A DNA stretch of 64,000 bases, from positions 1,736,001 through 1,800,000 of the forward strand of contig NC_019567.1 of assembly GCF_000317895.1 (NCBI RefSeq), written 5' to 3'. Each line of letters starts with the position of its first letter. Positions within the stretch are counted from its first letter, which is position 1. Position numbers and translations under genes: made by a program. Source of the DNA: Bdellovibrio bacteriovorus str. Tiberius. GTDB lineage: Bacteria > Bdellovibrionota > Bdellovibrionia > Bdellovibrionales > Bdellovibrionaceae. Positions 4,372 through 57,161 of this stretch are shown here, in pieces. Below the pieces are notes generated by a model that saw only the letters and a list, made by a program, of their open reading frames with translations, ran no database searches and was not told the DNA's origin.

Positions 4372-5471
4372 GGCGGCGGTGGTGATTCGACAGGTTTGTC
4401 GATGACTCGCTTGAAAACAGTGGGTTCGGTTTCTTCTGTCATCCACGCACTTAAAAGACGCAAGGTGACAGCCAGAATGACGGGCCCAATGAAAAGGCCC
4501 ACGATACCAAAAGAAATCATTCCACCCAGCACACCCACAGTGATCACCGCAGCCGGCAGGTCAGCCCCGCGTTTGATCAGAATCGGGCGGACAAAACCAT
4601 CCATCAATCCCACCGCCACCGCCCAGCCCAGCAGAATTGTTCCTGCGGTGTTGTGATCTTGCGAATAAAGCCACGCCACTGCGCCCAGCAAAGGCAGCAA
4701 CGGCCCAAGTTGTATCACACAGAAAATCAGAATCACGGCGGTCAGCAGTCCAGGCTTGGGAACTCCGGCAAGCCATGCCCCCAGGCCACCAAGGGCGGTC
4801 TGAATCAGGGCGGTGCCGATAATACCCATGGCCACGGCTTTCACTGATTGGGTGGCCAGCCTCAAGGCTTCTTCGCCGCGCAATCCGGCAAGTCGGCGTA
4901 TGAATGTACGGCAGGATTGGGCGATCTTTTCTCCGTTGGAATAAAATATTGAGGCGACGATGATAGTCAGAATGCAGTGGACCACCAGCATGGTGATACT
5001 GCCAACGCTGCCGACAATCCATTCAAAACCCTGATGAATATAGGGCCGTGCTCTTTCGATCAGCTCTTGAGGGGCGGTGGCCGCCAGTTCATTCCAGCGG
5101 GCCGCAAGGCGGGCTCCACCCAAGGGCAGTTTTTCAAGCCATTCCGGAGCCGGAGGCAGCTGCGTGTTTGCCAGATCCTGCAGGCCTGACACAATCACAT
5201 GACGGTTGGTGAGCAATGAGAAAAGGGCCGCCGCCAGAGGAACGATCACGATGGCGGTCATCAGCAGCGCCATCGTCAGCACGGCCGGGAATCGTTTGTT
5301 GTTGAATCGGGTTTGCAGTTTCAGCATTGTGGACCAGGTGGCAATGACGATCATCGCAGCCCAGATCATCGCTGGTAAAAAAGGCAGCAGCACCCACAGC
5401 GAGATCACCGCCAGCAGTCCCATAAAAAGGGTGCTTAACAATGTCTTGGTCAGGTCGGTTGATGGCGACAT
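4356..5471 (-). CDS. ydiK: AI-2E/PerM-family transporter, YdiK-like
   Basis: 371 residues with about eight predicted membrane segments in the AI-2E exporter (PF01594) arrangement: two or three N-terminal segments (LFMGLLAVISLWVLLPFLPA), a soluble helical region near 110-150, then a C-terminal block (IGTALIQTALGGLGAWLAGV, LLPLLGAVAWLY, MISFGIVGLFIGPVILAV). The N-terminus (LLSTLFMGLLAVISLWVL...IVIATWSTMLKLQ) resembles E. coli YdiK. The family includes putative exporters and Na+/H+ antiporters, so the substrate is unknown. The tail is proline-rich (ESPPPPEINH). ATG at 5471 is preceded by GGAGGAATC. Confidence 0.8.
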   Translation of the reverse strand: MSPSTDLTKTLLSTLFMGLLAVISLWVLLPFLPAMIWAAMIVIATWSTMLKLQTRFNNKRFPAVLTMALLMTAIVIVPLAAALFSLLTNRHVIVSGLQDLANTQLPPAPEWLEKLPLGGARLAARWNELAATAPQELIERARPYIHQGFEWIVGSVGSITMLVVHCILTIIVASIFYSNGEKIAQSCRTFIRRLAGLRGEEALRLATQSVKAVAMGIIGTALIQTALGGLGAWLAGVPKPGLLTAVILIFCVIQLGPLLPLLGAVAWLYSQDHNTAGTILLGWAVAVGLMDGFVRPILIKRGADLPAAVITVGVLGGMISFGIVGLFIGPVILAVTLRLLSAWMTEETEPTVFKRVIDKPVESPPPPEINH

Positions 5472-5546
5472 GATGATTCCTCCTGCATCCCTTCATCGCA
5501 ACCTTGAAGGGCCGGAAAATCAAACTGCCGTTAGGCCTTTGGTAAA

Positions 5547-6728
5547 TTACATTGGAATGAATGGCAGGAATGCCGAGGGCACCGTGATGGATTTTGCAAA
5601 CGCGCGGAAGTAATCGTCGTACATGTGATAATGGCCTTCATCACCTTTTTTGGTGCCCCAGCTGTTGCGGATCTTCCATTTCACCACGCGCCCGGTGCGC
5701 GGATCCAGTTCATAGCCCACGATCTGAACGGCATGGCCACCGCTGTTTGTGTCAAAAGCCTCACGCATCTGGCGCGTGGCCGGACGGGCATAGGTGGGGA
5801 TATGGAAGGCGCGAATGGACATGATGCCGCTGGAAGCATCCACGTATTCAGCGTGGTGATCATAGGACAGATACACGGCTTCGCCTTTATCCAGCATCCG
5901 GCGCGCGGTATCTTCGACCTTGTCGAGCGAGGTGATGAGTTTGCGTCCTTGAGGTGTTTTTTCAAACTTGGTCGCAGCCTTGCGATCATTGTGAATCGCC
6001 ATTTGGGTCATCGGGCCTTCAAAGGATTCAAAATATGCTTTGGCAAAGTCTTTCGGTGTCCATGTCTGTCCCTGGAATTCAAATTGAGCCGGCACTTCGC
6101 CCACCATTTGGCGGAATAGATCTTTGATTTGATTTCGTCCTTGTTCCAGAACCGCTTCGCGGGCCGGACCCTCGGCGGTTTTTTCTGCCTGCCACTGAGT
6201 GCGCACCAGAATGTTTTCAATGAATTCAGACATTTTCTTGGCCTGAGGGTTTAGCATGAAATCGGATTTTGGTTTCCAGGCGCCTTCCGGTATAAGACCG
6301 TATTCCAGAATGCTTTCGCGCGAAAACAACGGGCCGGCTCCCAGTTTGACTTCGACTTCTTTGGATGGTTTTTCCAGGCGCAGCAGGCTGCGCTCCAGCC
6401 AGTGGCGGGCACTTAGGTATTCGTTTGAAAGGGTCAGGGATTGTCCGGTTTTTTGTTCGTAGCCGCGTTCCAGATGTGACATCCACGAGTGCAGGTGACA
6501 GGTGCCAAGGTTGCACTGATTTTTGATTTGCGTGCTTTGTTTCAGGTCCACGGTGTAGCGGGTGTGGTGTTTGAAATCGGCTCGCAGGGTGCCCCAGATG
6601 ACTTCTGCGGGTGCCTGATTTTGGAAGGCCTGAAATTGGAATACGTCGGCGCACAAAGGGGCACCGCCAGCCTGAATAGGCAGGCTCCACAAGCTGAAAA
6701 CAAATAGCAGCGGGAAGAGGAACTTCAT
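5547..6728 (-). CDS. Exported papain-like (C1) cysteine peptidase
   Basis: Start taken at ATG 6728 (MKFLFPLLFVFSLWSLPIQA, a signal peptide); a TTG-initiated reading from 6752 is possible. The mature enzyme shows the papain-fold triad in order: IKNQCNLGTCHLHS with nucleophile Cys ~77, GGHAVQIVGYE with His ~332, and IRNSWG with Asn ~355. The motif around the nucleophile departs from classical QGxCGSCW: the Trp after the Cys is replaced by His. The ~250 residues between Cys and His are far longer than in papain, giving a bleomycin-hydrolase or C1-like layout with a helical insert. Probably acts in the periplasm or outside the cell; in a predator, prey protein breakdown is a reasonable inference. 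Confidence 0.75.
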   Translation of the reverse strand: MKFLFPLLFVFSLWSLPIQAGGAPLCADVFQFQAFQNQAPAEVIWGTLRADFKHHTRYTVDLKQSTQIKNQCNLGTCHLHSWMSHLERGYEQKTGQSLTLSNEYLSARHWLERSLLRLEKPSKEVEVKLGAGPLFSRESILEYGLIPEGAWKPKSDFMLNPQAKKMSEFIENILVRTQWQAEKTAEGPAREAVLEQGRNQIKDLFRQMVGEVPAQFEFQGQTWTPKDFAKAYFESFEGPMTQMAIHNDRKAATKFEKTPQGRKLITSLDKVEDTARRMLDKGEAVYLSYDHHAEYVDASSGIMSIRAFHIPTYARPATRQMREAFDTNSGGHAVQIVGYELDPRTGRVVKWKIRNSWGTKKGDEGHYHMYDDYFRAFAKSITVPSAFLPFIPM

Positions 6729-16134: not shown

Positions 16135-16902
16135 ATGCAGTTGAATTTGCGCGCTGAAGTTAAAAATCTGGTTTTCTCTTACGGTGATAAAAAAGTTCTG
16201 AACGGCATCACGTTGCCGATTTATGAAAACCGCGTCACTGCTTTGATTGGTCCTTCCGGTTGCGGTAAGACCACGCTGCTTCGTTGTTTCAACCGCATGC
16301 ATGATCTTTACGCCAATGCCCAGTATCAGGGCGAGATTCTGCTTTATCCAAATCAAAGCAACATCCTGGGTAAAGACATCGACCCAATGGAAGTGCGCAT
16401 GCGTATCGGAATGGTTTTCCAAAAACCAAATCCATTCCCAAAAAGCATCTATGACAACGTCGCTTACGGGCTGACGGTTCGCGGGGTCAAAAAGAAAAGC
16501 TTCATCGAAGAACAAGTTGAAAAGTCCCTGCAGCAGGCGAGCCTTTGGAACGAAGTCAAAGATCGTTTGCACTCTTCAGCGACCGCGCTTTCCGGCGGCC
16601 AGCAGCAGCGTCTGTGCATCGCCCGCGCCCTGGCGACCGAACCTGAAATCCTGCTGCTGGATGAACCTACATCAGCCCTGGATCCAATCTCCACTCGTCA
16701 CATCGAAGAGCTGATTCAAGAGCTTCGTAAAGACGTCACAATCGCGATCGTCACCCACAGCTTGCACCAGGCAGCCCGTGTGTCGGACTTCACCGCATTC
16801 ATGTATCTGGGCGACCTGATCGAATTCGGCGCCAGTGATCAGATCTTCACCAACCCAAAAGATCAAAGAACAGAAAACTACATCACAGGCCGCTTCGGCT
16901 AA
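16135..16902 (+). CDS. pstB: Phosphate ABC transporter ATPase
   Basis: 255 residues with a complete ABC ATPase core: Walker [10 protein letters not shown] (39-47), Q-loop [20 protein letters not shown], signature LSGGQQQR (~151) and Walker [14 protein letters not shown] (~171), H-loop VTHS. The QKPNPFP motif is typical of PstB. It is the last gene of the operon: no phoU, phoB or phoR follows, and the next gene is convergent. Confidence 0.93.
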
Positions 16903-16939
16903 AAGGTACCTGCTTACTTTTGCATAAGCGTTGCGTTGT

Positions 16940-17890
16940 TTATTGGAAGGCGATTTTCAGGGCTAGTTTGGCGTAGTAGGCGTTGCCGATATCGACTTGG
17001 TTGCCGGGATCCAGTTCGTAGTTTTCAGCAACGAAGAATCTTCTGTCAAAGGCGTGGCCCACTTCAAAGTCTGCAAAGACGGACTTGGACAATGGCGACT
17101 TGATACCCATCAAGAATTTCTTTTCATCATAGAACAAACGATCTTCGCGGTTTTCGCGACCGTATGGCAAATAAGTTACCTGACTGAAGTCCATTCCCGC
17201 ATACACTTGCGCAAAGTCGTTCAGTTTATAGTACACCGTGCTTTTGATCACCCAGGGAACCAAGGTGAAGAAAGTCAGTCCGAACTTGTCGGCAAACTGC
17301 CAGTTGATCGAAGCAAATGGGGCGCCCAGCACCAGATTCAATTCACGGGACGGGTAATAGAACCACGCAAAACCCGGCAGGGGAATGTTGTTCAGGATCG
17401 GGCGGTTGTTGGAATAGTTGGCCAGTAGCAGCCAGCTGCTGGTGGCATCGCTCGGGTAGGAGTAAAAGGCCGTCACCCCTAAAGTGGAAACCGACGGGTC
17501 ATAGAAGGGTTTGTCGCTGGCAGAACCGTAGTTGACCATCACGGACCACATGCGTTTTTCACCGATCACTTCCGTGTAGCTTGCGCCAAACTTGATGTCA
17601 TATAGCTCGGAATGACCGTTCTGTGCGGGGTCCACGCTCATCTGGCTTCCTGAAAAACTTAAGCCCACGGATTGAGTTTCAGTTTTGTAAACCGGAGAGC
17701 TTAAGTCCACCAGTTGATAGCGCATGTTGGCGCGCTCTTGTGGGAATTCCGCCTTGTCATAGAAAAAGCCCAGATAATTAAATGTCGGACGCTGACGACC
17801 CGGCGGGGTTAAGCCTTGAGCCAATTCAAAGGCCAATGCAGAGGTCGAAACACCCAAAACTGACAGAACGGTGATCAATAACTTTGTCAT
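16940..17890 (-). CDS. Outer-membrane beta-barrel-like protein
   Basis: Start chosen at ATG 17890 (MTKLLITVLSVLGVSTSALA, signal peptide); the frame extends to 17926. 316 residues with many alternating-hydrophobicity strands rich in Tyr, Phe and Trp (SWLLLANYSNNRPI, TVYYKLNDFAQVYAGMDFS, NAYYAKLALKIAFQ) and turns rich in Asp, Asn and Gly. The C-terminal strand ends with an aromatic residue one position from the end, as in BAM substrates. Likely an outer-membrane barrel of 12 or more strands. Specific function unknown; its position opposite pstSCAB does not by itself imply a phosphate porin. Confidence 0.65.
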   Translation of the reverse strand: MTKLLITVLSVLGVSTSALAFELAQGLTPPGRQRPTFNYLGFFYDKAEFPQERANMRYQLVDLSSPVYKTETQSVGLSFSGSQMSVDPAQNGHSELYDIKFGASYTEVIGEKRMWSVMVNYGSASDKPFYDPSVSTLGVTAFYSYPSDATSSWLLLANYSNNRPILNNIPLPGFAWFYYPSRELNLVLGAPFASINWQFADKFGLTFFTLVPWVIKSTVYYKLNDFAQVYAGMDFSQVTYLPYGRENREDRLFYDEKKFLMGIKSPLSKSVFADFEVGHAFDRRFFVAENYELDPGNQVDIGNAYYAKLALKIAFQ

Positions 17891-18041
17891 ATCCCACAGC
17901 TTAAAACCCTCTTTGCTTGCGGACAACAGCTATTCTATCAGGGGTTCAAAGTATTTAAATCTGACGATCTTTACATCAACTTAACTCGAGTTTTCAAAAA
18001 GACCTCGTTAGCCTTGGTTATCCCTTTCAAGTAGGTGAAGA

Positions 18042-18782
18042 ATGAGACGTCAAAGAGGCTTGGTGGTTCTCTTGGGGCTGGTGGTAATCGGCAGTCTTGG
18101 CATCGCCGCTTTTCGCGGATTGTCGACGCCCGAGAAAGCAAACTGCGTTCAGATTTATTTTGATGCCGAGTCCCGGGACCAGTTGGCCTCGGGGAAAGCT
18201 TTTGCCCAGCAGTTGCGGGGGCTTTTGGCGCCGTATGTGGGTTACTCGGTTCACGCATCGGGGATTGGCAGTTATCAAAGCGGGGAAGTCCATCGCTGTG
18301 ATAAAAATATTTATGTTGGAACTCATTTCGACCATCGCGTTCCCCGGGTGTTTGTTGAAGACTTTATGAACACCAAGGGGAGCGTTGTGTGGTTTGGTTA
18401 TAATGTCTGGCAGATGGGCCCACGCTTGGAAAGTGAAATGGGTTTGCGCTTCCTAAGAATGGCGCGCCAGGAATTCACGGGCTTTTTTGATGAGGTTCTT
18501 TACGAAGGCGGGTTCTTTAAAAAAACCAATAAGACCCTGACTGAACAGGTGGAGCTTTTGCCGTCGGATATGAGCAAGTTTTCCATGCTGGCTGAATCGC
18601 GAAACTCCGTCACCCGTGAAATCGTGCCCTATATCGTGCAATCTAAAAATCGCTTCTATGTGGCCGATGTTCCAGAACTTGAGGCGGGTCACATGAACCT
18701 GATGATGGCAGAGGTTCTGGCTCGGTTCATGGAATCCAAAGCGCAGCCTCGCGGGGTTATCGCCTTTGGGCTAGGTCATTAA
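18042..18782 (+). CDS. Membrane-anchored/exported protein with DUF2334-like N-terminal features
   Basis: 246 residues from ATG 18042 (GTAGGTGAAG upstream). Residues 8-25 are a signal anchor (VVLLGLVVIGSLGIAAF). The following region has the pattern seen before the catalytic part of DUF2334/YdaL-type deacetylase-like proteins: a strand (CVQIYFDAES), a helix (AQQLRGLLAP), IYVGTHFDHRVPRVFVEDF and VVWFGYNVWQMG. The catalytic deacetylase half with metal-binding His/Asp is absent. It may be a stand-alone sensor or structural version of that domain. Similarity is by eye and weak. Confidence 0.5.
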   Translation: MRRQRGLVVLLGLVVIGSLGIAAFRGLSTPEKANCVQIYFDAESRDQLASGKAFAQQLRGLLAPYVGYSVHASGIGSYQSGEVHRCDKNIYVGTHFDHRVPRVFVEDFMNTKGSVVWFGYNVWQMGPRLESEMGLRFLRMARQEFTGFFDEVLYEGGFFKKTNKTLTEQVELLPSDMSKFSMLAESRNSVTREIVPYIVQSKNRFYVADVPELEAGHMNLMMAEVLARFMESKAQPRGVIAFGLGH

Positions 18783-18838
18783 ATGCTCTCTCCTGCTTTG
18801 CGATTGCCTCGCATTGGCAGAGTGGTTAGGCTAGTGGG

Positions 18839-19153
18839 ATGACATCACTTCAGACTGATAAGTACTTTATTCGTGAAAGCATGTTCAACCTTGTTGAGCT
18901 TTCTTTGTTGGCCCGTCTTTATGAGGCTCACTGCACGCCATCAGCGTCCAGCGGGAAAATCAGCCCTGAATCTCTGGCTCAGACCTTGTTGAAAATGAAA
19001 GCGACAGAAAAGAACGGTCAGCTGCGTGTGGCGATCTTTGAAACAGACCCTGTGGGCTTTTATTGGAATTATGAAGGCAAGGTTCTGGCGCACTGGGTGC
19101 ACCCGGATCATCGTGGCCATGGGGTGGAGCAAAACCTTCTGGGCGGCGCTTAA
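18839..19153 (+). CDS. Short GNAT-acetyltransferase-like protein, probably truncated
   Basis: 104 residues from ATG 18839. The sequence follows the first half of a GNAT fold: helices (LVELSLLARLYEAHC), strand QLRVAIFETDPVGFYWNYEG, then the acetyl-CoA motif A HPDHRGHGVEQNLL. It stops three residues after motif A, where a normal GNAT continues for 50 or so residues with strand 5 and motif B. The next gene begins three bases later. It may be a remnant of a fused or longer acetyltransferase, or a minimal protein kept for another role. Confidence 0.5.
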   Translation: MTSLQTDKYFIRESMFNLVELSLLARLYEAHCTPSASSGKISPESLAQTLLKMKATEKNGQLRVAIFETDPVGFYWNYEGKVLAHWVHPDHRGHGVEQNLLGGA

Positions 19154-19156
19154 GCC

Positions 19157-20182
19157 GTGACTCAATTCTGGAGCGGTAAAAGAGTTTTCATCACGTGCCC
19201 CACGGGTTTTCTGGGGGCGTGGCTGGTGCAGACTCTGCTTGATTCCCAAGCCCAGGTGTTTGGCTTTGGCGAGCCCGCCGCGACATCTCCGAATCTTTTT
19301 GATTTGAAAAATCTGGGGCAGAAAATCTCGATGACCTACGGGGATATGCGGGATGAGTCCGCGTTGCGCGAGGCTTTGCAGTTTGCTGAAGCGGATGTGG
19401 TTTTGCATCTGGGGGAAAGCGGTCTGATTTCTGACCTTGGCAAAAGACCTTTGGAAACCTTTGGCAAAGCAGCACTTGGAACGGCGACCTTGATGGAGCT
19501 GATGCGGGAAACCGCATCGGTGCGTTCCTTGGTGGTGGTCAGCTCAGATAAGGTCTATGGACGAAAAATTTCCGGCGAGGATCTGACTGAAACAGATGCA
19601 GTGGCGCCGTCAGCGATTTTACCCACAGCAAAGCTCTGTGCCGAGATGATTGCTCTTTCTTATCGTCAGAGTTTTTTTGCCCCTGAAAAATACAATAAAC
19701 ATAAAATCGCCATAGCCACGGCTCGTATTGGTTCTGCCATTGGTGGCGGGGACTTCACCGAGCAGGCGTTGATTCCGCAGGCTGTGCAGGCCTTCGTGGC
19801 TGGCAACAGCTTTGATTTAAAGAACCCTCAGTCCGTGCGCCCGTGGATTCACGTGTTGGATCAGGTGGTGGGCCTGATGAGTCTTGCCGAGGCTTTGTAT
19901 GAACGCGGACCGAAGCTTGCGCCGACCTATAATTTTGCGGCGAAAGATACTAACACAGTCGGTGAAGTTGCGCAAGCTTTGGCGACAGCCTGGGGAGAAA
20001 ATGCCCGGGTGAATTTGGGCGAGGGGTCGAAGTCCTCGTTGTCCGTGCATGCGAATTTGGATTCAAAGCTCGCTCAGAGCGATCTGAACTGGAAAGTTCA
20101 AAGAAATCTCACAGATACTCTGAAAGAAACACTTCAGTGGTATAAAGAATTTTATTCTTCAAGGACTTCTGCTACCTTGTAG
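19157..20182 (+). CDS. Degenerate CDP-glucose 4,6-dehydratase-like SDR protein
   Basis: 341 residues from GTG 19157. Overall layout matches RfbG/CDP-glucose 4,6-dehydratase: WSGKRVFIT...TGFLGAWLVQTLL, YGDMRD, VVVSSDKVYG, TARIGSAIGGGDF, RPWIHVLDQVVGL and TYNFAA. Two key sites are altered. The NAD(P)-binding GxxGxxG loop reads CPTGFLG, with Cys for the first Gly, and the YxxxK catalytic pair reads LPTAK, with Leu where the general-acid Tyr should be; the Lys is kept. It is therefore probably inactive as a dehydratase or has another role, for instance a structural partner. It sits away from the sugar-nucleotide genes, just after a truncated GNAT-like gene. Confidence 0.65.
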   Translation: MTQFWSGKRVFITCPTGFLGAWLVQTLLDSQAQVFGFGEPAATSPNLFDLKNLGQKISMTYGDMRDESALREALQFAEADVVLHLGESGLISDLGKRPLETFGKAALGTATLMELMRETASVRSLVVVSSDKVYGRKISGEDLTETDAVAPSAILPTAKLCAEMIALSYRQSFFAPEKYNKHKIAIATARIGSAIGGGDFTEQALIPQAVQAFVAGNSFDLKNPQSVRPWIHVLDQVVGLMSLAEALYERGPKLAPTYNFAAKDTNTVGEVAQALATAWGENARVNLGEGSKSSLSVHANLDSKLAQSDLNWKVQRNLTDTLKETLQWYKEFYSSRTSATL

Positions 20183-20184
20183 GG

Positions 20185-23100
20185 ATGGCCTTTTCCGGAT
20201 TAAGTCTTCAAAAAATTTCCCAGTTAGTCAGCCCCAAGGATCTTGCGACCCTGGAGCAAATGCCTGTTGCTGAAAACGCATTCCGCATTCTAAAAAAATT
20301 GTCTTTGGACAGCCACAACATCCAAAAGAAGGAAGACGGCGGATTAGACATCCAGTTCGTTTACGCAGAAGAATCCACTTTGCGCAAATCCTATGTGCAG
20401 GTCGAAGAAGACGCTGATGGCGGGGATCTGACCTTCCACTGCGCCCAGTGTGCTGAAAGCCGCAAGGACAAAGAAGACATCTGCGTTCATGAGTGGGCCT
20501 CATTGATTCTGATTTGGTGGGCACTGTCGGTGGATCGTGGATTCCTGCGTAATCACAGCTTCCAGGTCAGTAATTTCTGCGAGGACTTCTGGGATCTGAC
20601 GGAAACCAAAAAAGCCCGCCGCGGTGAGGGTGATGGCAAAGGCCTGCCTGAAAACTTAAAGCTTGAATCCATCAGTCTGGTTTCTGAAACGCTTTCGTTG
20701 GACGACGATCGCGCGTTGGAAGAATACCTGCCAGAATGGAACAAGGTCTATGAGCTGGGCCGTGTTGCCGAAGGGGACGAATCCGGCACCGGGGCGGTGT
20801 GGGGACTGCCTCAGGCTTTCCGCGGGTCTTTGCAAAAAGAAACCGTTTACTGGGCTGATGTGCGCCATCAGGATCAGTTGGCTGGGCTTCTTCGTTATAA
20901 TTTCAATGACGGCGTTCAAATCAGCAGCCGGGATATTCTTCGTCATGCTTATCGATCCGTGGTTCCGCGCGATCTGTTGCCGGGCCCCGCACGCAAGGAA
21001 ACTTTTGAGGTTCTTTGGCCACTTCTTCCCAGTGACCCGCATCGCTTCTTCAGCCGGGACCTTTTGGATATTGAAGCCGTCATGCAAGAGCTTCTTTCCC
21101 GTATCACCCGCCGGGTGAACAAAGGGGATCTGAAGTTTTATTTGCAGGATCAAAAAGATCTTGGAAAAGCCTTCCAGGTTGGCAACATCAGTGTTGAGGC
21201 CGAAGACGCCTTTGAATGGAAAGTTGAATTCAGTGGCTCTGAGGAAGTTAAAACCTCAGCCTTGCTGTCGGCGCAAAAAGATCAGCAGAAATACATCTTC
21301 TTTGATAACTTCGCGGTGGACTTCACAACCGGAGCGGTTGTTGCTTTTGCATGGAAAAAAGAAAGCGAAGCTTTAGATCAGTTTTATTCCCGCCAGTTGA
21401 AGGCAGACCGTCCCAGAGCCTTTTCGCACCTGCATGTTGAAGGCAAGGGTGAAACCGCGGCCTTTATGAAATTCTTGCGCGGACGTTCGCTTCCGGTGCG
21501 CGTTCAGGGTGGCAGCCATGACATGGGCGCTATTGCCAGTGTCCTGAACCTGCATCATCAGGATGATGCAGGCTTTGTCCCGGAAAAGGTTTTCACTCTC
21601 AACGAAAAAGAAACCGTCAGTAAAAAGGGCTTCAGCACTCCGGTGGTGCTGATCATGCGCACGTTGCAAGAGGGGCTGGGCTTTTTACTTCAAACCGAAG
21701 TTAAATCCCTGGCCTCGAGCAGTTTTAAAAAGCGCGAATGGGATTTGAAGATTCTAAAACACCTCGGAGTCTTGCAGTATCTGACTTTGGAGGCTTTGAC
21801 TTATCACTTTGAAGGTCAGCTGACTGATGGCACGACCTGCGACCCGGCGAATATCTTCCCGGTGTTGCATAATCGCGTGCACAGCTTGCTTGTGACCGGA
21901 GACGGCACAAGTCTGACCAAGACTCAGCCGTTGGATGAACTGTGCTCTAAAGGGGTTTTGGGCATTTTTTCTGACTATGTCGCCAAAGTTCTGAAATCTG
22001 TTGGCGAGCGTGAGGCCATTTACAGTTCCAAAGGGGAATACCTGTTCTCGGGCTCGGTTGAACGGGAATTCCGTGTTCTTTATGAAATTCTGAAATACAT
22101 GGCATTGTCCACCCAAGGCAGCGCCTTTAAACGCGCCCGCACCGGCTTTTTAACCAAGGCCTGGGATGGAAAGATCGAAGAAGATCCCATGCTGGAACAA
22201 GGTCATTTCTTTATGCCTTCCTGGGGTAAAGAAGATGTCACACCAACGCAGTCCTTGGGACTGCTGCAGCCGTTGGTGGATCATGGCATTCGCCTGTATG
22301 TGCGCGGTCAGCTGTTACAAGAACTTGGTCAGAACGAATTCGTTGTCGACTTCCAGATTGTCAGCAAACTTGATGAAGGGATGCTGAACTGGTTTGAACT
22401 GAATCCGCGTTTCTTCCTGCAGGGGAAAGAAATTGATGCCACTCAGCTGAAAAGCATGGGCAGTGGCGGTGTGGTTGAATACGATGGAAAGTTCTTCCTG
22501 GTGCCGCGCAAAGAAATTCCGTCTTTGCGTCGTTTGGAAGGATTCTGGCAAAAGCTTCAGGCCGGTAAAAAAGATTCATCCAAAAAAGCCTGGACCGATA
22601 AATACTATCAGCTGCCGAAACACCAGGCGCTTGAATTGCTGGCTTTGCGCGCGTCGGGCTACGCCTTCCGCGGGGACGATGAATGGAAGCGCATCTGTGC
22701 CTTCTATGATGGTTTGGGATCGCGCACAGATCTGGTCAAGCTGCCGGGTTCGGTGAAAGCGGAACTTAAGACTTATCAGCACGAAGGTGTGCAGTGGTTG
22801 CTGGATCTGTTCACTCTGCGTATGGGTGCACTGCTGGCCGACGACATGGGTCTGGGTAAAACTCTGCAAGCGCTGTCATTCCTGGATCTGCTTCGCACGC
22901 GCGAACAGCTGGGCCAGGTGCTGGTCGTGGTGCCTTCAAGTTTGGTGTACAACTGGGAAAGCGAAGTCGCGAAATTCACCCCGGAACTGCCGTTTGAGAT
23001 CTTTACCAGTAAGGACCATGACCGCCTTGGCAAAAGACTTGAAGCCAAAGAACCATTGGTTGTGGTTACGACCTATGGTCTTTTGATGGAAAATGACGAG

Positions 23101-24180
23101 TTCCTAAGCCAGTACAATTGGAATGTGCTGATCTTTGATGAAGCTCAAAATCTGAAAAATATCACTGCTAAACGAACCAGTTCGGCGCGTATGCTGAATG
23201 CCAGATTCAAAATGTGTCTGACCGGTACTCCGATGGAAAATCACTTTGGTGAATTCTATTCGTTGTTGGATCTGGTGGTGCCGGGATGTCTTGGCAAGTA
23301 CGATGATTTCCGCCGTCACTTTGTGAACACCGAAGTGGTGTTGCTTGAAGACGTCGAGGATCTGAAGCTTAAAACCAAACCTTTGATCATGCGCCGAACC
23401 AAGAAAGAAATCCTGGATCAGCTTCCTGAAAAACAGGAAACCAAGGTCAGTATCGCCTTTGAAGACAAGCAAAAGCAGATCTACCGCGATATTGCGATCG
23501 CTTACAATCAGCGCATTCAAGACACCATCCGCGAAGCCGGGGAGTCCCAGTCGCAGTTGCAGATGTTGACCGCTTTACTGCGCCTTCGTCAGGCGTGCTC
23601 TGATCCCGGCGCATTGCCAGAGGTGAAGTACGAAAAGACGCCGCCTAAGTTGGAAGCGTTGATGGACTCTTTGCAGGAAATCATTGAATCCGGCGAAAGT
23701 GCGCTGGTCTTTACTCAGTTCCTGCAGACGCTGGAACGCACTGAAAAGCTTTTGAAAGCGGTCGGCATCCCGGTCTTTGTGTTGCACGGGGCGATCCCAA
23801 CGAAGCAGCGCCAGAAGATTCTGAAGGACTTTAACGAAACCAACGGCGGGGCTGTTCTGGTGATGACTCTGAAAACGGGCGGGGTGGGTTTGAATCTGAC
23901 CAAGGCCAGTTATGTGTTCCATCTGGAGCCATGGTGGAATCCGTCAGTCGAAAATCAGGCCACAGACCGTGCGCACCGTTTGGGGCAGCGTAAGGCCGTT
24001 CAGGTCTTCCGCTATATCATGCACGAATCCCTGGAAGAAAAGATGGAGCTTTTGAAGGAACGCAAGAATCGCAAGTTCCAAAGCCTGTTCTCAGAAGCAG
24101 AAGCCAGCACGGATCTGACCGGGGCCGGCGGCGCCCTGACCAAAGAGGACTTCGACTTCTTGTTGGGCCTTAAATCCTAA
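20185..24180 (+). CDS. SWIM-domain SNF2-family helicase/ATPase
   Basis: 1331 residues. A SWIM-type zinc finger near residues 84-100 (FHCAQCAES...ICVHEW, CxxC...CxH) is followed by ~750 residues of unassigned sequence. The SNF2 ATPase spans ~860-1300: LKTYQHEGVQWL, Walker A LLADDMGLGKTLQ (~888), DEAQ box LIFDEAQNLKN (~982), LTGTPMENH, RRTKKEILDQLPEK, then the helicase C domain ending in DRAHRLGQRKAVQVFRYI. Bacterial SWIM-SNF2 proteins remodel protein-DNA or RNA polymerase complexes; the target is unknown. ATG 20185 comes right after the previous gene's stop, so the two may be co-transcribed. Confidence 0.9.
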   Translation: MAFSGLSLQKISQLVSPKDLATLEQMPVAENAFRILKKLSLDSHNIQKKEDGGLDIQFVYAEESTLRKSYVQVEEDADGGDLTFHCAQCAESRKDKEDICVHEWASLILIWWALSVDRGFLRNHSFQVSNFCEDFWDLTETKKARRGEGDGKGLPENLKLESISLVSETLSLDDDRALEEYLPEWNKVYELGRVAEGDESGTGAVWGLPQAFRGSLQKETVYWADVRHQDQLAGLLRYNFNDGVQISSRDILRHAYRSVVPRDLLPGPARKETFEVLWPLLPSDPHRFFSRDLLDIEAVMQELLSRITRRVNKGDLKFYLQDQKDLGKAFQVGNISVEAEDAFEWKVEFSGSEEVKTSALLSAQKDQQKYIFFDNFAVDFTTGAVVAFAWKKESEALDQFYSRQLKADRPRAFSHLHVEGKGETAAFMKFLRGRSLPVRVQGGSHDMGAIASVLNLHHQDDAGFVPEKVFTLNEKETVSKKGFSTPVVLIMRTLQEGLGFLLQTEVKSLASSSFKKREWDLKILKHLGVLQYLTLEALTYHFEGQLTDGTTCDPANIFPVLHNRVHSLLVTGDGTSLTKTQPLDELCSKGVLGIFSDYVAKVLKSVGEREAIYSSKGEYLFSGSVEREFRVLYEILKYMALSTQGSAFKRARTGFLTKAWDGKIEEDPMLEQGHFFMPSWGKEDVTPTQSLGLLQPLVDHGIRLYVRGQLLQELGQNEFVVDFQIVSKLDEGMLNWFELNPRFFLQGKEIDATQLKSMGSGGVVEYDGKFFLVPRKEIPSLRRLEGFWQKLQAGKKDSSKKAWTDKYYQLPKHQALELLALRASGYAFRGDDEWKRICAFYDGLGSRTDLVKLPGSVKAELKTYQHEGVQWLLDLFTLRMGALLADDMGLGKTLQALSFLDLLRTREQLGQVLVVVPSSLVYNWESEVAKFTPELPFEIFTSKDHDRLGKRLEAKEPLVVVTTYGLLMENDEFLSQYNWNVLIFDEAQNLKNITAKRTSSARMLNARFKMCLTGTPMENHFGEFYSLLDLVVPGCLGKYDDFRRHFVNTEVVLLEDVEDLKLKTKPLIMRRTKKEILDQLPEKQETKVSIAFEDKQKQIYRDIAIAYNQRIQDTIREAGESQSQLQMLTALLRLRQACSDPGALPEVKYEKTPPKLEALMDSLQEIIESGESALVFTQFLQTLERTEKLLKAVGIPVFVLHGAIPTKQRQKILKDFNETNGGAVLVMTLKTGGVGLNLTKASYVFHLEPWWNPSVENQATDRAHRLGQRKAVQVFRYIMHESLEEKMELLKERKNRKFQSLFSEAEASTDLTGAGGALTKEDFDFLLGLKS

Positions 24181-24206
24181 AAGGTTCCTGGTTCTTTTTT
24201 GGCCCA

Positions 24207-24235
24207 TGGCGCGTCATGCTGGCGCGCCAACTTTT
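24207..24235 (+). terminator. Weak terminator after the SNF2 gene
   Basis: TGGCGCG (24207-24213), nine-base loop, CGCGCCA (24223-24229), then ACTTTT. It lies between the SNF2 stop and the convergent toxin-antitoxin pair. The T-run is short. Confidence 0.4.
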
Positions 24236-24539
24236 AAGAGGACTTCCGAACTTGCACAGTCATTTTTAGTCCGGCTTTTCGCAAATAATCGTGAATGGCA
24301 CATTCGACAGCCAATACTTCGGACAAGCCGCATTTCTTTGCAATCTTTGCGGCAAGATCGATGCTCACATTTTGCCGGCCCTTTTCGATATCGCAGAGGG
24401 TGCTTTTAGAGATTTCTAAAAGCATCGCCATTTCTGTTTGAGAAAGGGACTTGGTGGTTCTGGCCGCGCGCAGGAAGCCGCCAAAGGACATCGGGCCTAG
24501 TTCTTTTTCTAAAATCTTTGTGAGGCTCTTAGTACTCAT
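24234..24539 (-). CDS. XRE-family antitoxin (HigA-like)
   Basis: 101 residues. An HTH of XRE/Cro type covers ~20-75 (FLRAARTTKSLSQTEMAMLL, ISKSTLCDIEKGRQNVSIDL), with a helical C-terminal tail. ATG 24539 lies inside the upstream toxin gene and overlaps its last 11 bases, so translation is coupled. It should neutralise the RelE-type toxin and repress the promoter through the palindrome at 24823. A paralogous pair with the same gene order and overlap lies at 60315-60900 (antitoxin similarity: SDIEKGRKAVS, LLQHAGLKYKVQVS versus CDIEKGRQNVS, LRKAGLKMTVQVR). Confidence 0.82.
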   Translation of the reverse strand: MSTKSLTKILEKELGPMSFGGFLRAARTTKSLSQTEMAMLLEISKSTLCDIEKGRQNVSIDLAAKIAKKCGLSEVLAVECAIHDYLRKAGLKMTVQVRKSS

Positions 24540-24810
24540 GTTTGTTCACCTCAATGACGATGATTTCAATCTCTTTGATCGTTTCCACGTAAATTGCTCT
24601 ATAAGAACGATTTAGTCGTATGGATCGTTGTCCCTTGCGGTCTCCCTTAAGAGGCTCGTCATGGTAGCCCGGGAGCTTTCTTGTCTGACTCAAACCGATC
24701 AGCTCGATGGATTCTGCCCAATAACGTAGGGCTTCTTTAATGTGTGAAGGGATTCTTTTTAACTGCTTCTCTGCGAATCTGGATATTCGAACCTGTGTTC
24801 GACTTTCCAT
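24529..24810 (-). CDS. RelE/HigB-family toxin
   Basis: 93 residues with the RelE/ParE fold: N-terminal helices (FAEKQLKRIPSHIKEALRYW), then LPGYHDEPLKGDRKGQRSIR, NRSYRAIYVE and IEIIVIEVNKHEY. The basic residues in the beta-sheet (RSIRL, RSYRA) fit a ribosome-dependent mRNA endonuclease. Toxin precedes antitoxin (HigBA order). The downstream paralogue at 60315 shares the PGYHDEPL..G..KG.RSIRL core. Activity inferred from fold. Confidence 0.82.
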   Translation of the reverse strand: MESRTQVRISRFAEKQLKRIPSHIKEALRYWAESIELIGLSQTRKLPGYHDEPLKGDRKGQRSIRLNRSYRAIYVETIKEIEIIVIEVNKHEY

Positions 24811-24822
24811 AGAACCTTTCAG

Positions 24823-24857
24823 TACGGTAAATTACCGTATTTTGGTGAAATTGTCAA
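24823..24857 (-). promoter_or_regulatory. Promoter and palindromic operator of the toxin-antitoxin pair
   Basis: On the minus strand TTGACA (24857-24852), 17-base spacer, TAATTT (24834-24829). A perfect palindrome, arms TACGGTAA and TTACCGTA around one base, spans 24823-24839 and covers the -10 region. This is the usual geometry for autorepression by the antitoxin. Confidence 0.65.
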
Positions 24858-24988
24858 TATGGGGTGTGAGAGCAAGAAGCAGGAGTGAATAAATTGCGCA
24901 ATACCTGCTTCTGAAGGCGGCCGAGTCCCAGGTTCGGATCAGAAGTGCCAGTTTCTTTTTGGGGTAGAGTGAGTTAGACGCACTGTGG

Positions 24989-25032
24989 CCCAAAAATGGC
25001 AGCAGAACCTTTTTTCTGAGCCATTTTTTGGG
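24989..25032 (+). promoter_or_regulatory. Long leader hairpin upstream of the MBOAT gene
   Basis: CCCAAAAATGGC (24989-25000) pairs with GCCATTTTTTGGG (25020-25032) with one bulged T, and inside it CAGAA pairs with TTCTG. The inner stem GGC-AG-CAGAA / TTCTG-A-GCC is followed by ATTTTTT, a terminator-like layout. It ends 12 bases before the MBOAT ATG and there is no clear ribosome site between, so it may attenuate or gate that operon. Confidence 0.45.
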
Positions 25033-55313: not shown

Positions 55314-57161
55314 ATGTTTTTGCGACTGGCTGGATTACCAAGAAGAATAAAAATATTGCTGATGTTGTTTAGCGATTTGGTTCTTCTGCCATTGGCGCTA
55401 TGGTCGTCAGTCGCATTGCGCATGGGGACTCTGAGTCCCGATGTGGCAAGTTATATTTGGCTTTTCTTTGTGGTTCCATTTGTAACAATCCCTATTTTTA
55501 TAAGAATCGGGCTGTATAGAGCTGTAATCCGTTATCTCGACGATAAGATTATTTACACCGTTTTTTATGGGGTTACTCTTTCTGTTCTGTTATTGACTGC
55601 TGTTATAGTCATGGGAAGAGTTTCCTCCATCCCTCGGTCTTCTCTGATTATTTACTGGATTATTGCTATTGCTTATATTGCTTCCAGCCGTTTCTTGGCT
55701 CGAGGATTGATGCGAAGTCTTGAAAGATTCGAAGATCGTCGTCAGCCAGTGGCTATTTATGGTGCGGGTCGTGCCGGGCTGCAGACTGCTTTGGCGCTAA
55801 TGTCGGGACCAGAGTTTCGCCCGGTTGCTTTCTTTGACGACAATCCAGAAGTGCAAGGCACCAATGTTGTAGGCATTCGAGTTTTCGATCCAATGGAAGC
55901 GATTGATGTAATGAAGGCCAAAGAGTGCAGGCAGTTATTAATTGCCATGCCTTCTGCCAGTCGTACGCGCCGTAAAGAAATTATTCAGAAGTTCGAACGT
56001 GAAGGGGTTATTCTTAAGACGCTGCCTGGAATGGGAGAGCTTGTTGATGGTCGCGTCAGAATTGAGGATATTCGTGAGGTGGGTGTAGAGGATTTGCTCG
56101 GGCGTGATCCAGTACCACCTTTTGAAGACCTTATTAAATCCTGTATTAGAGACAAAGTGGTTTTGGTTACTGGGGCTGGGGGCTCTATTGGGTCTGAGCT
56201 TTGTCGGCAGATTATCCTGAATACTCCTAGAAAGCTAATTTTACTGGAGCAGGCTGAGTTTGCTTTGTACAAAATTGAGCAAGATATTCTAAAGCATCGG
56301 ATTAATTTTGAGGTAGTTCCAATTTTAGGTGATGTGCTCAATTCTGACCACATGGAGAAGCTGATTTCAAGATATGGTGTCCAAACTGTTTATCATGCTG
56401 CTGCCTACAAGCACGTTCCGCTTGTTGAGAGTAATGTGATCGCAGGAGTTATGAACAATGTATTTGGCACCTTAGCGGCTTCGAGGGCGGCAATTAAAGG
56501 GAATGTCGAGACTTTCGTGTTGATTTCGACTGATAAGGCTGTGCGTCCTACAAATGTTATGGGGGCATCAAAGCGTCTTTCTGAGCTGGTTCTGCAGGGC
56601 TTAGCTCAGGATCGAAAGTGCTCAACGCGGTTCTGTATGGTCAGATTTGGTAATGTCTTGGGCTCCTCTGGGTCAGTGGTCCCTTTATTTAAAGAGCAGA
56701 TTCGGAATGGGGGGCCTGTCACCGTGACTCATCCAGAAGTTACCCGTTACTTCATGACTATCCCCGAAGCAGCGCAATTGGTGCTTCAGGCTGGTTCGAT
56801 GGGTAAAGGAGGAGATGTCTTCGTTCTGGACATGGGAGAGTCAGTTAAGATTTTGGACCTGGCAAAAAAGATGATCGAGCTTTCAGGTTTAGAAGTCCGT
56901 GATTCTGTTACCGGATCAGGTGACATCTCTATTGAGTTCACTGGATTGCGTCCCGGTGAGAAGTTATATGAAGAGTTGCTTATTGGGAGTAATGTTTCTT
57001 GGACTGCTCACCCGAGAATTATGACTGCCAGTGAAAACTGCTTGGAGTGGGATACTTTGAATAAGCAGTTAGATGAATTAAAAAACGCATGTTTGTCTGG
57101 TGATGACAGAGTTGTCCGAGCGATACTGAAGGCGTTGGTTCCAGAGTATGTCCAAGGATAA
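55314..57161 (+). CDS. pglF: UDP-GlcNAc 4,6-dehydratase (PglF/WbpM/CapD family)
   Basis: 615 residues. Four N-terminal membrane segments (to ~130), a CoA-binding-like Rossmann domain (VAIYGAGRAGLQTALAL, ~150), then the SDR catalytic domain: VLVTGAGGSIGSELCRQI (~285), YHAAAYKHVPLVESN, ISTDKAVRPTNVMGASKRLS with Met in place of the usual Tyr as in this family. Converts UDP-GlcNAc to the 4-keto-6-deoxy sugar, first step to bacillosamine. Overlaps the next gene by 14 bases. Confidence 0.88.
   Translation: MFLRLAGLPRRIKILLMLFSDLVLLPLALWSSVALRMGTLSPDVASYIWLFFVVPFVTIPIFIRIGLYRAVIRYLDDKIIYTVFYGVTLSVLLLTAVIVMGRVSSIPRSSLIIYWIIAIAYIASSRFLARGLMRSLERFEDRRQPVAIYGAGRAGLQTALALMSGPEFRPVAFFDDNPEVQGTNVVGIRVFDPMEAIDVMKAKECRQLLIAMPSASRTRRKEIIQKFEREGVILKTLPGMGELVDGRVRIEDIREVGVEDLLGRDPVPPFEDLIKSCIRDKVVLVTGAGGSIGSELCRQIILNTPRKLILLEQAEFALYKIEQDILKHRINFEVVPILGDVLNSDHMEKLISRYGVQTVYHAAAYKHVPLVESNVIAGVMNNVFGTLAASRAAIKGNVETFVLISTDKAVRPTNVMGASKRLSELVLQGLAQDRKCSTRFCMVRFGNVLGSSGSVVPLFKEQIRNGGPVTVTHPEVTRYFMTIPEAAQLVLQAGSMGKGGDVFVLDMGESVKILDLAKKMIELSGLEVRDSVTGSGDISIEFTGLRPGEKLYEELLIGSNVSWTAHPRIMTASENCLEWDTLNKQLDELKNACLSGDDRVVRAILKALVPEYVQG

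Follow-up and report, generated by a model that had tools for sequence, protein, structure and literature searches.

Pseudoenzymes of both the GNAT fold and the SDR fold are already known. In working members of the two folds, C4 oxidation requires bound NAD+ plus a base, and an acetyltransferase requires the β4-β5 cleft; the GNAT loop motif is Q/RxxGxG/A. The Tyr-free UDP-GlcNAc 4,6-dehydratases PglF and WbpM form another branch of the SDRs. WbpM has a membrane N-terminal region. PMC8987622 describes both enzymes as active with Met replacing Tyr, assigns removal of the C4 proton in PglF to Thr395 and Asp396, and gives (its Table 1) the acid/base set that we write as [ST]DK.

The window analyzed here is a stretch of 64,000 nucleotides from Bdellovibrio bacteriovorus str. 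Tiberius, whose genome is a single contig of 3,988,594 bases. It encodes, on the + strand, a half-length GNAT-fold protein of 104 aa (18839..19153), which stops right past motif A, and a Tyr-less homologue of CDP-glucose 4,6-dehydratase, an extended SDR of 341 aa (19157..20182). The SDR begins with a GTG, 3 bases past the half-GNAT stop, and the first-pass annotation had placed both genes, with intact frames, correctly. Scans of 17900-20400 gave 3 promoters (shuffle mean 1.8) and 3 terminators (shuffle mean 3.1), in both cases close to the shuffles, and a search of 16900-25000 for structured RNAs had no hit to Rfam at the gathering score. Our literature search found no work joining Bdellovibrio with a pseudoenzyme, and one that links Bdellovibrio to CDP-glucose, apparently in connection with Nudix proteins. 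The main texts of PMC6561027 and PMC12034629 do not mention dehydratase, epimerase, GNAT or acetyltransferase; that of PMC7529429 uses acetyltransferase and lipopolysaccharide only about other genes, with no dehydratase, O-antigen or dTDP. No description of the half-GNAT/SDR pair was found, in searches of which some were broad and which left most subscription journals outside.

The window SDR is homologous over its full length to CDP-glucose 4,6-dehydratase (RfbG, TIGR02622; 1rkx, 1wvg), with 31-33% identity, and its model (8-row alignment, pLDDT 84, pTM 0.87) shares the fold of that enzyme, with TM-scores of 0.87-0.89 relative to query length. The best PDB matches were 1wvg and 1rkx (1wvg_A, E 5.4e-33, TM 0.89/0.86), and the overall SDR fold is intact in the model. 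Against TIGR02622 the protein scored 258.4 bits (E 1e-76), under the cut-off of 278.45, which is reached nowhere in the window's genome. These SDRs descend from CDP-glucose 4,6-dehydratases, and the window protein keeps [ST]DK, the Lys, R190, GGGD and RPWxH. The first-pass annotation had called the two neighbors sugar-enzyme homologues, a description that stands for the SDR and is conjectural for the GNAT. Unlike the enzyme, the window SDR has no adjoining cytidylyltransferase gene; canonical relatives outside the genus follow such a gene, as judged by eye, in 8/8 loci read.

Residues were compared between the 22 Tyr-less SDRs of the genus and 14 canonical enzymes. As had been read from the window alone, the NAD glycine loop is altered to TCPTGFLG (19193..19216, + strand; residues 13-20; canonical TGHTGFKG), that is CxxGxxG in place of GxxGxxG, with the first Gly changed to Cys and the second and third kept, and LPTAK (19619..19633, + strand; residues 155-159) replaces YxxxK. 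In the alignments, L155 falls at the position of the canonical Tyr and K159 at that of the Lys. Catalytic residues had been described as lost, which proved true of the Tyr (0/22, against 14/14 canonical) but not of the acid/base set S130-D131-K132 (19544..19552, + strand), kept in 22/22 orthologues, nor of the Lys, kept in 20/22 and replaced by Arg in two. Q88, N105, N193, R204, Q231 and E295 are each absent from all 22 and present in 14/14 canonical enzymes, whilst R190, R228 and loop Gly20 are kept throughout. Position 155 is occupied by A, L, F or S, never by Met. Comparison with orthologues, as the first-pass annotation had advised, thus returned a uniformly missing Tyr and a variable loop: the first Gly is present in 9/22, the second in 11/22 and all three in 7/22, at least one being replaced in the remaining 15. 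The Tyr-less SDRs also have invariant residues of their own, including K178, Y179, N180, K183, S296 and H298; the first four occur in 22/22 of them vs at most 3/14 canonical enzymes, and belong to the segment K-Y-N-K-H-K (19688..19705, + strand; residues 178-183), invariant at all six positions in the 19-row alignment A2.

In the tree the 22 Tyr-less SDRs form one clade (support 100/100), with the 14 canonical enzymes on the other side. A sub-clade of eight (97/88) comprises seven rows with a TGH loop (100/99) and G011 (LGHTGFLG), and seven of these eight keep all three loop glycines, the exception being G023 with Ser17. In the window sub-clade of 14 (100/99) every member has at least one loop glycine replaced, the first in 13 and the second in 10. 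Because all 22 lack the Tyr while some keep the loop, loss of the Tyr probably preceded the change in the NAD loop, an order that depends on rooting the tree at its midpoint, with the canonical enzymes on one side and the Tyr-less SDRs on the other. The pair would then offer a natural sequence of changes, in which the Tyr and later loop glycines of an SDR disappear under continuing selection, and with it a test of how an enzyme turns into a binding protein.

The kept [ST]DK (22/22) and Lys (20/22) are odd for a plain pseudoenzyme and count against a non-enzymatic reading of the SDR. By analogy with PglF, the protein could be an active Tyr-free dehydratase or epimerase, with Thr/Ser-Asp serving C4 oxidation and Lys serving dehydration. 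It resembles PglF and WbpM in having a residue other than Tyr before x3K together with an intact [ST]DK, and since that set is intact in 22/22 and PglF and WbpM work with Met for Tyr (PMC8987622), this rival is a serious one. The seven orthologues that keep all three loop glycines also speak for it, as does a PglF/WbpM-like protein that carries TDK and MGASK and is encoded 35 kb downstream in the window. That relative, unlike the window SDR, has an intact Gly loop (VTGAGGSIGSE). In the window's sub-clade the replaced loop glycines make NAD+ binding doubtful, although the window protein itself has lost only the first; the six further residues from Q88 to E295 are gone in 22/22; and position 155 is variable, so no single replacement appears to have been selected. 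A Tyr-free enzyme is strongest as an explanation for the seven loop-intact orthologues and weaker for the 14 of the window's sub-clade, and for the SDR as such we consider it unlikely.

The half-GNAT ends, as the first-pass annotation had observed, just past its acetyl-CoA motif, with 7 residues following HPDHRGHGVE. Its β4 strand and acetyl-CoA loop, WVHPDHRGHGVE, lie at 19094..19129 (+ strand; residues 86-97), and E97 of the loop, where Gly or Ala is usual in the GNAT motif, is invariant in 15/15 rows of alignment A1. By sequence its GNAT identity is weak: Pfam Acetyltransf_7 matched the window protein at E 0.044 and 14.6 bits, below the cut-off of 27, and weak matches to GNAT models occurred in 10/15 family members of A1, the window's included (best E 0.0019). 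By predicted fold, in a model of moderate confidence (6-row alignment, mean pLDDT 68), it is clear. The predicted topology, β1-α1-α2-β2-β3-β4 and a short start of α3, is that of the N-terminal half of a GNAT with the acetyl-CoA loop; unlike GNAT acetyltransferases, the protein ends at about 102 aa without the C-terminal β5-α4-β6-β7. The titles of the 50 Foldseek PDB matches listed all denote acetyltransferases, save for 1yre (hypothetical protein PA3270) and RibT, whose title gives just its name; 8gxj names the 1yre protein an N-acetyltransferase. The best E, 9.8e-4, is the sole one <0.001 among the matches listed. In VIA the best row, 5us1_A (Z 10.5), placed model residues 1-104 onto chain residues -5 to 102 of 189. 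A frameshift or sequencing error behind the short GNAT was ruled out, because 22/23 homologues end near the same place; none of the 23 is full-length.

Within the genus the half-GNAT occurs in 23/24 genomes and the SDR in 22/24. One genome, G018, has neither; PstB is also missing there at E<=1e-60, which makes a gap in the assembly the probable cause. A second, G022, carries the half-GNAT alone, and in G014 the half-GNAT start is cut by a contig end. A profile search of the phylum found the half-GNAT in 23/368 genomes, all of one genus, and in 0/344 genomes outside it. A full-length or mobile-element source was also sought and rejected, with no match in plasmids, phages, viral contigs or those 344 genomes. 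Beyond the phylum, coverage was by two short peptide patterns run against genome contigs, which hit six loci, each with Bdellovibrio or Bdellovibrionaceae in its title. The half-GNAT is thus a conserved and apparently genus-limited protein of a predator, for which our literature search found no described role.

Half-GNAT and SDR lie within 40 bases of each other in 19/22 pairs, and the GNAT stop overlaps the presumed ATG start of the SDR in at least six genomes (G005, G010, G013, G015, G016, G020). The three split pairs are about 440 (G023), 830 (G007) and 6,300 bases apart (G012), with small toxin-antitoxin-like genes (judged by eye, without a family search) or polysaccharide genes between them. 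In G012 the insert includes a canonical CDP-glucose dehydratase and a putative cytidylyltransferase gene. Upstream, pst genes lie on the same strand in 18/22 relatives' stretches; of the others, the contig ends first in G014 and G017, and none lies within 5 kb in G012 and G020.

Selection was assessed by dN/dS, as had been suggested, on 10 pairs, of which five had dS below 1 and the other five were near or past saturation. In the five unsaturated pairs the half-GNAT gave ratios of 0.012-0.027 and the SDR ratios of 0.023-0.129, both far below 1, compared with 0-0.037 for the pst genes and 0.034-0.081 for the neighbors h328 and h246. Where a ratio could be given among the other five pairs, it was 0.044-0.049 for the half-GNAT and 0.051-0.107 for the SDR. 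Both genes are under purifying selection. The SDR frames are open in 22/22; in G015, G016 and G020 the flagged stops are those at the natural end. The half-GNAT and the SDR are therefore an old, genus-wide, enzyme-derived pair that purifying selection has kept in its altered form.

The first-pass annotation had left a choice between reuse in a new role and recent decay, and had held that orthologues with intact Tyr and Gly and a full-length GNAT would point to simple decay in this strain. Orthologues with all three glycines were found (7/22), but none with an intact Tyr or a full-length GNAT; reuse fits these results, and recent decay in the window strain alone is ruled out by the shared alterations together with the low dN/dS. 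A slower decay, in which both genes would be vanishing relics of an old polysaccharide locus, could draw on the missing SDR in G022, the broken half-GNAT frame in G007 and the lost pocket residues of the SDR. Against this stand the dN/dS of 0.01-0.13 for both genes, the open SDR frames and the new invariant residues (e.g. K178, Y179, N180, K183, H298), and we hold such decay to be very improbable. Because C4 oxidation depends on a base as well as on bound NAD+, and acetyl transfer by a GNAT on the β4-β5 cleft, neither protein is likely to carry out its ancestral reaction in the window's lineage. The reading that we favor, and consider fairly probable, is that in this lineage the two are conserved, neofunctionalized non-enzymes, not products of decay. 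The names that homology would supply, acetyltransferase and sugar dehydratase, are both probably wrong as to function.

Only adjacency and the overlap of stop and start suggest that the half-GNAT and the SDR might act jointly. The correlation of distance matrices was also considered as a sign of partnership and set aside as positive yet unspecific: the partial r for GNAT-SDR was 0.33 given PstB (n=15) and 0.73 given PstA (n=12), and the neighbor h328 correlates too (given PstB, n=12: 0.47 with the GNAT, 0.62 with the SDR). The half-GNAT may instead be a functional protein in its own right, such as an adaptor, with the SDR a neighbor that is kept independently for its own role. Such independence would account for the half-GNAT being the better conserved of the two (65-80% identical to the window's copy, vs 41-62% for the SDR, leaving out the nearest relatives G001, G004 and G007), for its presence without the SDR in G022 and for the three split pairs. 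It fits poorly with 19/22 pairs lying within 40 bases and with the stop/start overlaps, which are as in translational coupling, and we give it a low, though appreciable, probability. The G022 and split-pair cases also count against a joint unit, as does G007, where the GNAT is broken and the SDR intact.

The two products may act jointly as a non-catalytic binding or scaffold unit tied to the polysaccharide locus found downstream in many cases, a proposal that we put forward as a guess, less likely than not. The SDR fold, in which R190, GGGD and RPWxH are largely kept, could still bind a nucleotide-sugar-like ligand, whilst the half-GNAT could dock on a protein partner through its unpaired β4 edge. 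In its most specific and more speculative form, the halved GNAT would dock on the silenced CDP-sugar dehydratase, and this genus-specific unit would sense or present the ligand and so tune surface-polysaccharide assembly, the genus preserving both steps of the change into a non-enzyme (first loss of the Tyr while the loop stayed intact, then alteration of the loop). This fuller reading we think rather unlikely.

The putative surface-polysaccharide locus occupies 25-59 kb of the window, downstream of the pair. A nucleotide-sugar dehydrogenase, HisH and a WbuX amidotransferase scored over their NCBIfam cut-offs, and a DltB/MBOAT-like protein, an initiating sugar transferase, a PseC-like aminotransferase and a 615-aa dehydratase were below cut-off yet clear. 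The last, a membrane protein at 55314-57161 with TDK and MGASK (Met replacing Tyr), we take to be PglF/WbpM-like from its length and these motifs. Its gene is present in 14/24 genomes. In eight it is on one contig with the SDR and always downstream, on the same strand and 16-52 kb off; in six it is on a different contig. This marker gene is missing from 10/24 genomes (E<=1e-80), which counts against the polysaccharide link.

Directly downstream of the SDR, with its start 3 bases past the SDR stop, lies a gene for a 1331-aa SNF2 helicase (20185-24180). It was considered as a partner and rejected, as it adjoins the pair only in the window and three relatives, a count in which some relatives' contigs end early. 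Downstream of the SNF2 gene, on the minus strand, is a pair of genes that look by eye like HTH and RelE (24234-24810), present in some relatives and absent from others. Upstream of the half-GNAT, a 246-aa protein with a signal-like start (18042-18782) had no Pfam or NCBIfam match and diverges fast, with 30-94% identity among the relatives that have it. In G007 (L095) the frame of the half-GNAT is disrupted close to its end by a short tandem duplication, and the SDR is intact; small toxin-antitoxin-like genes, by eye, lie on both sides of the half-GNAT region. In G023 (L105) a small gene that looks ribbon-helix-helix-like by eye (reversed coordinates 5430-5717) lies between half-GNAT and SDR, and a similar gene sits upstream of the half-GNAT in G007.
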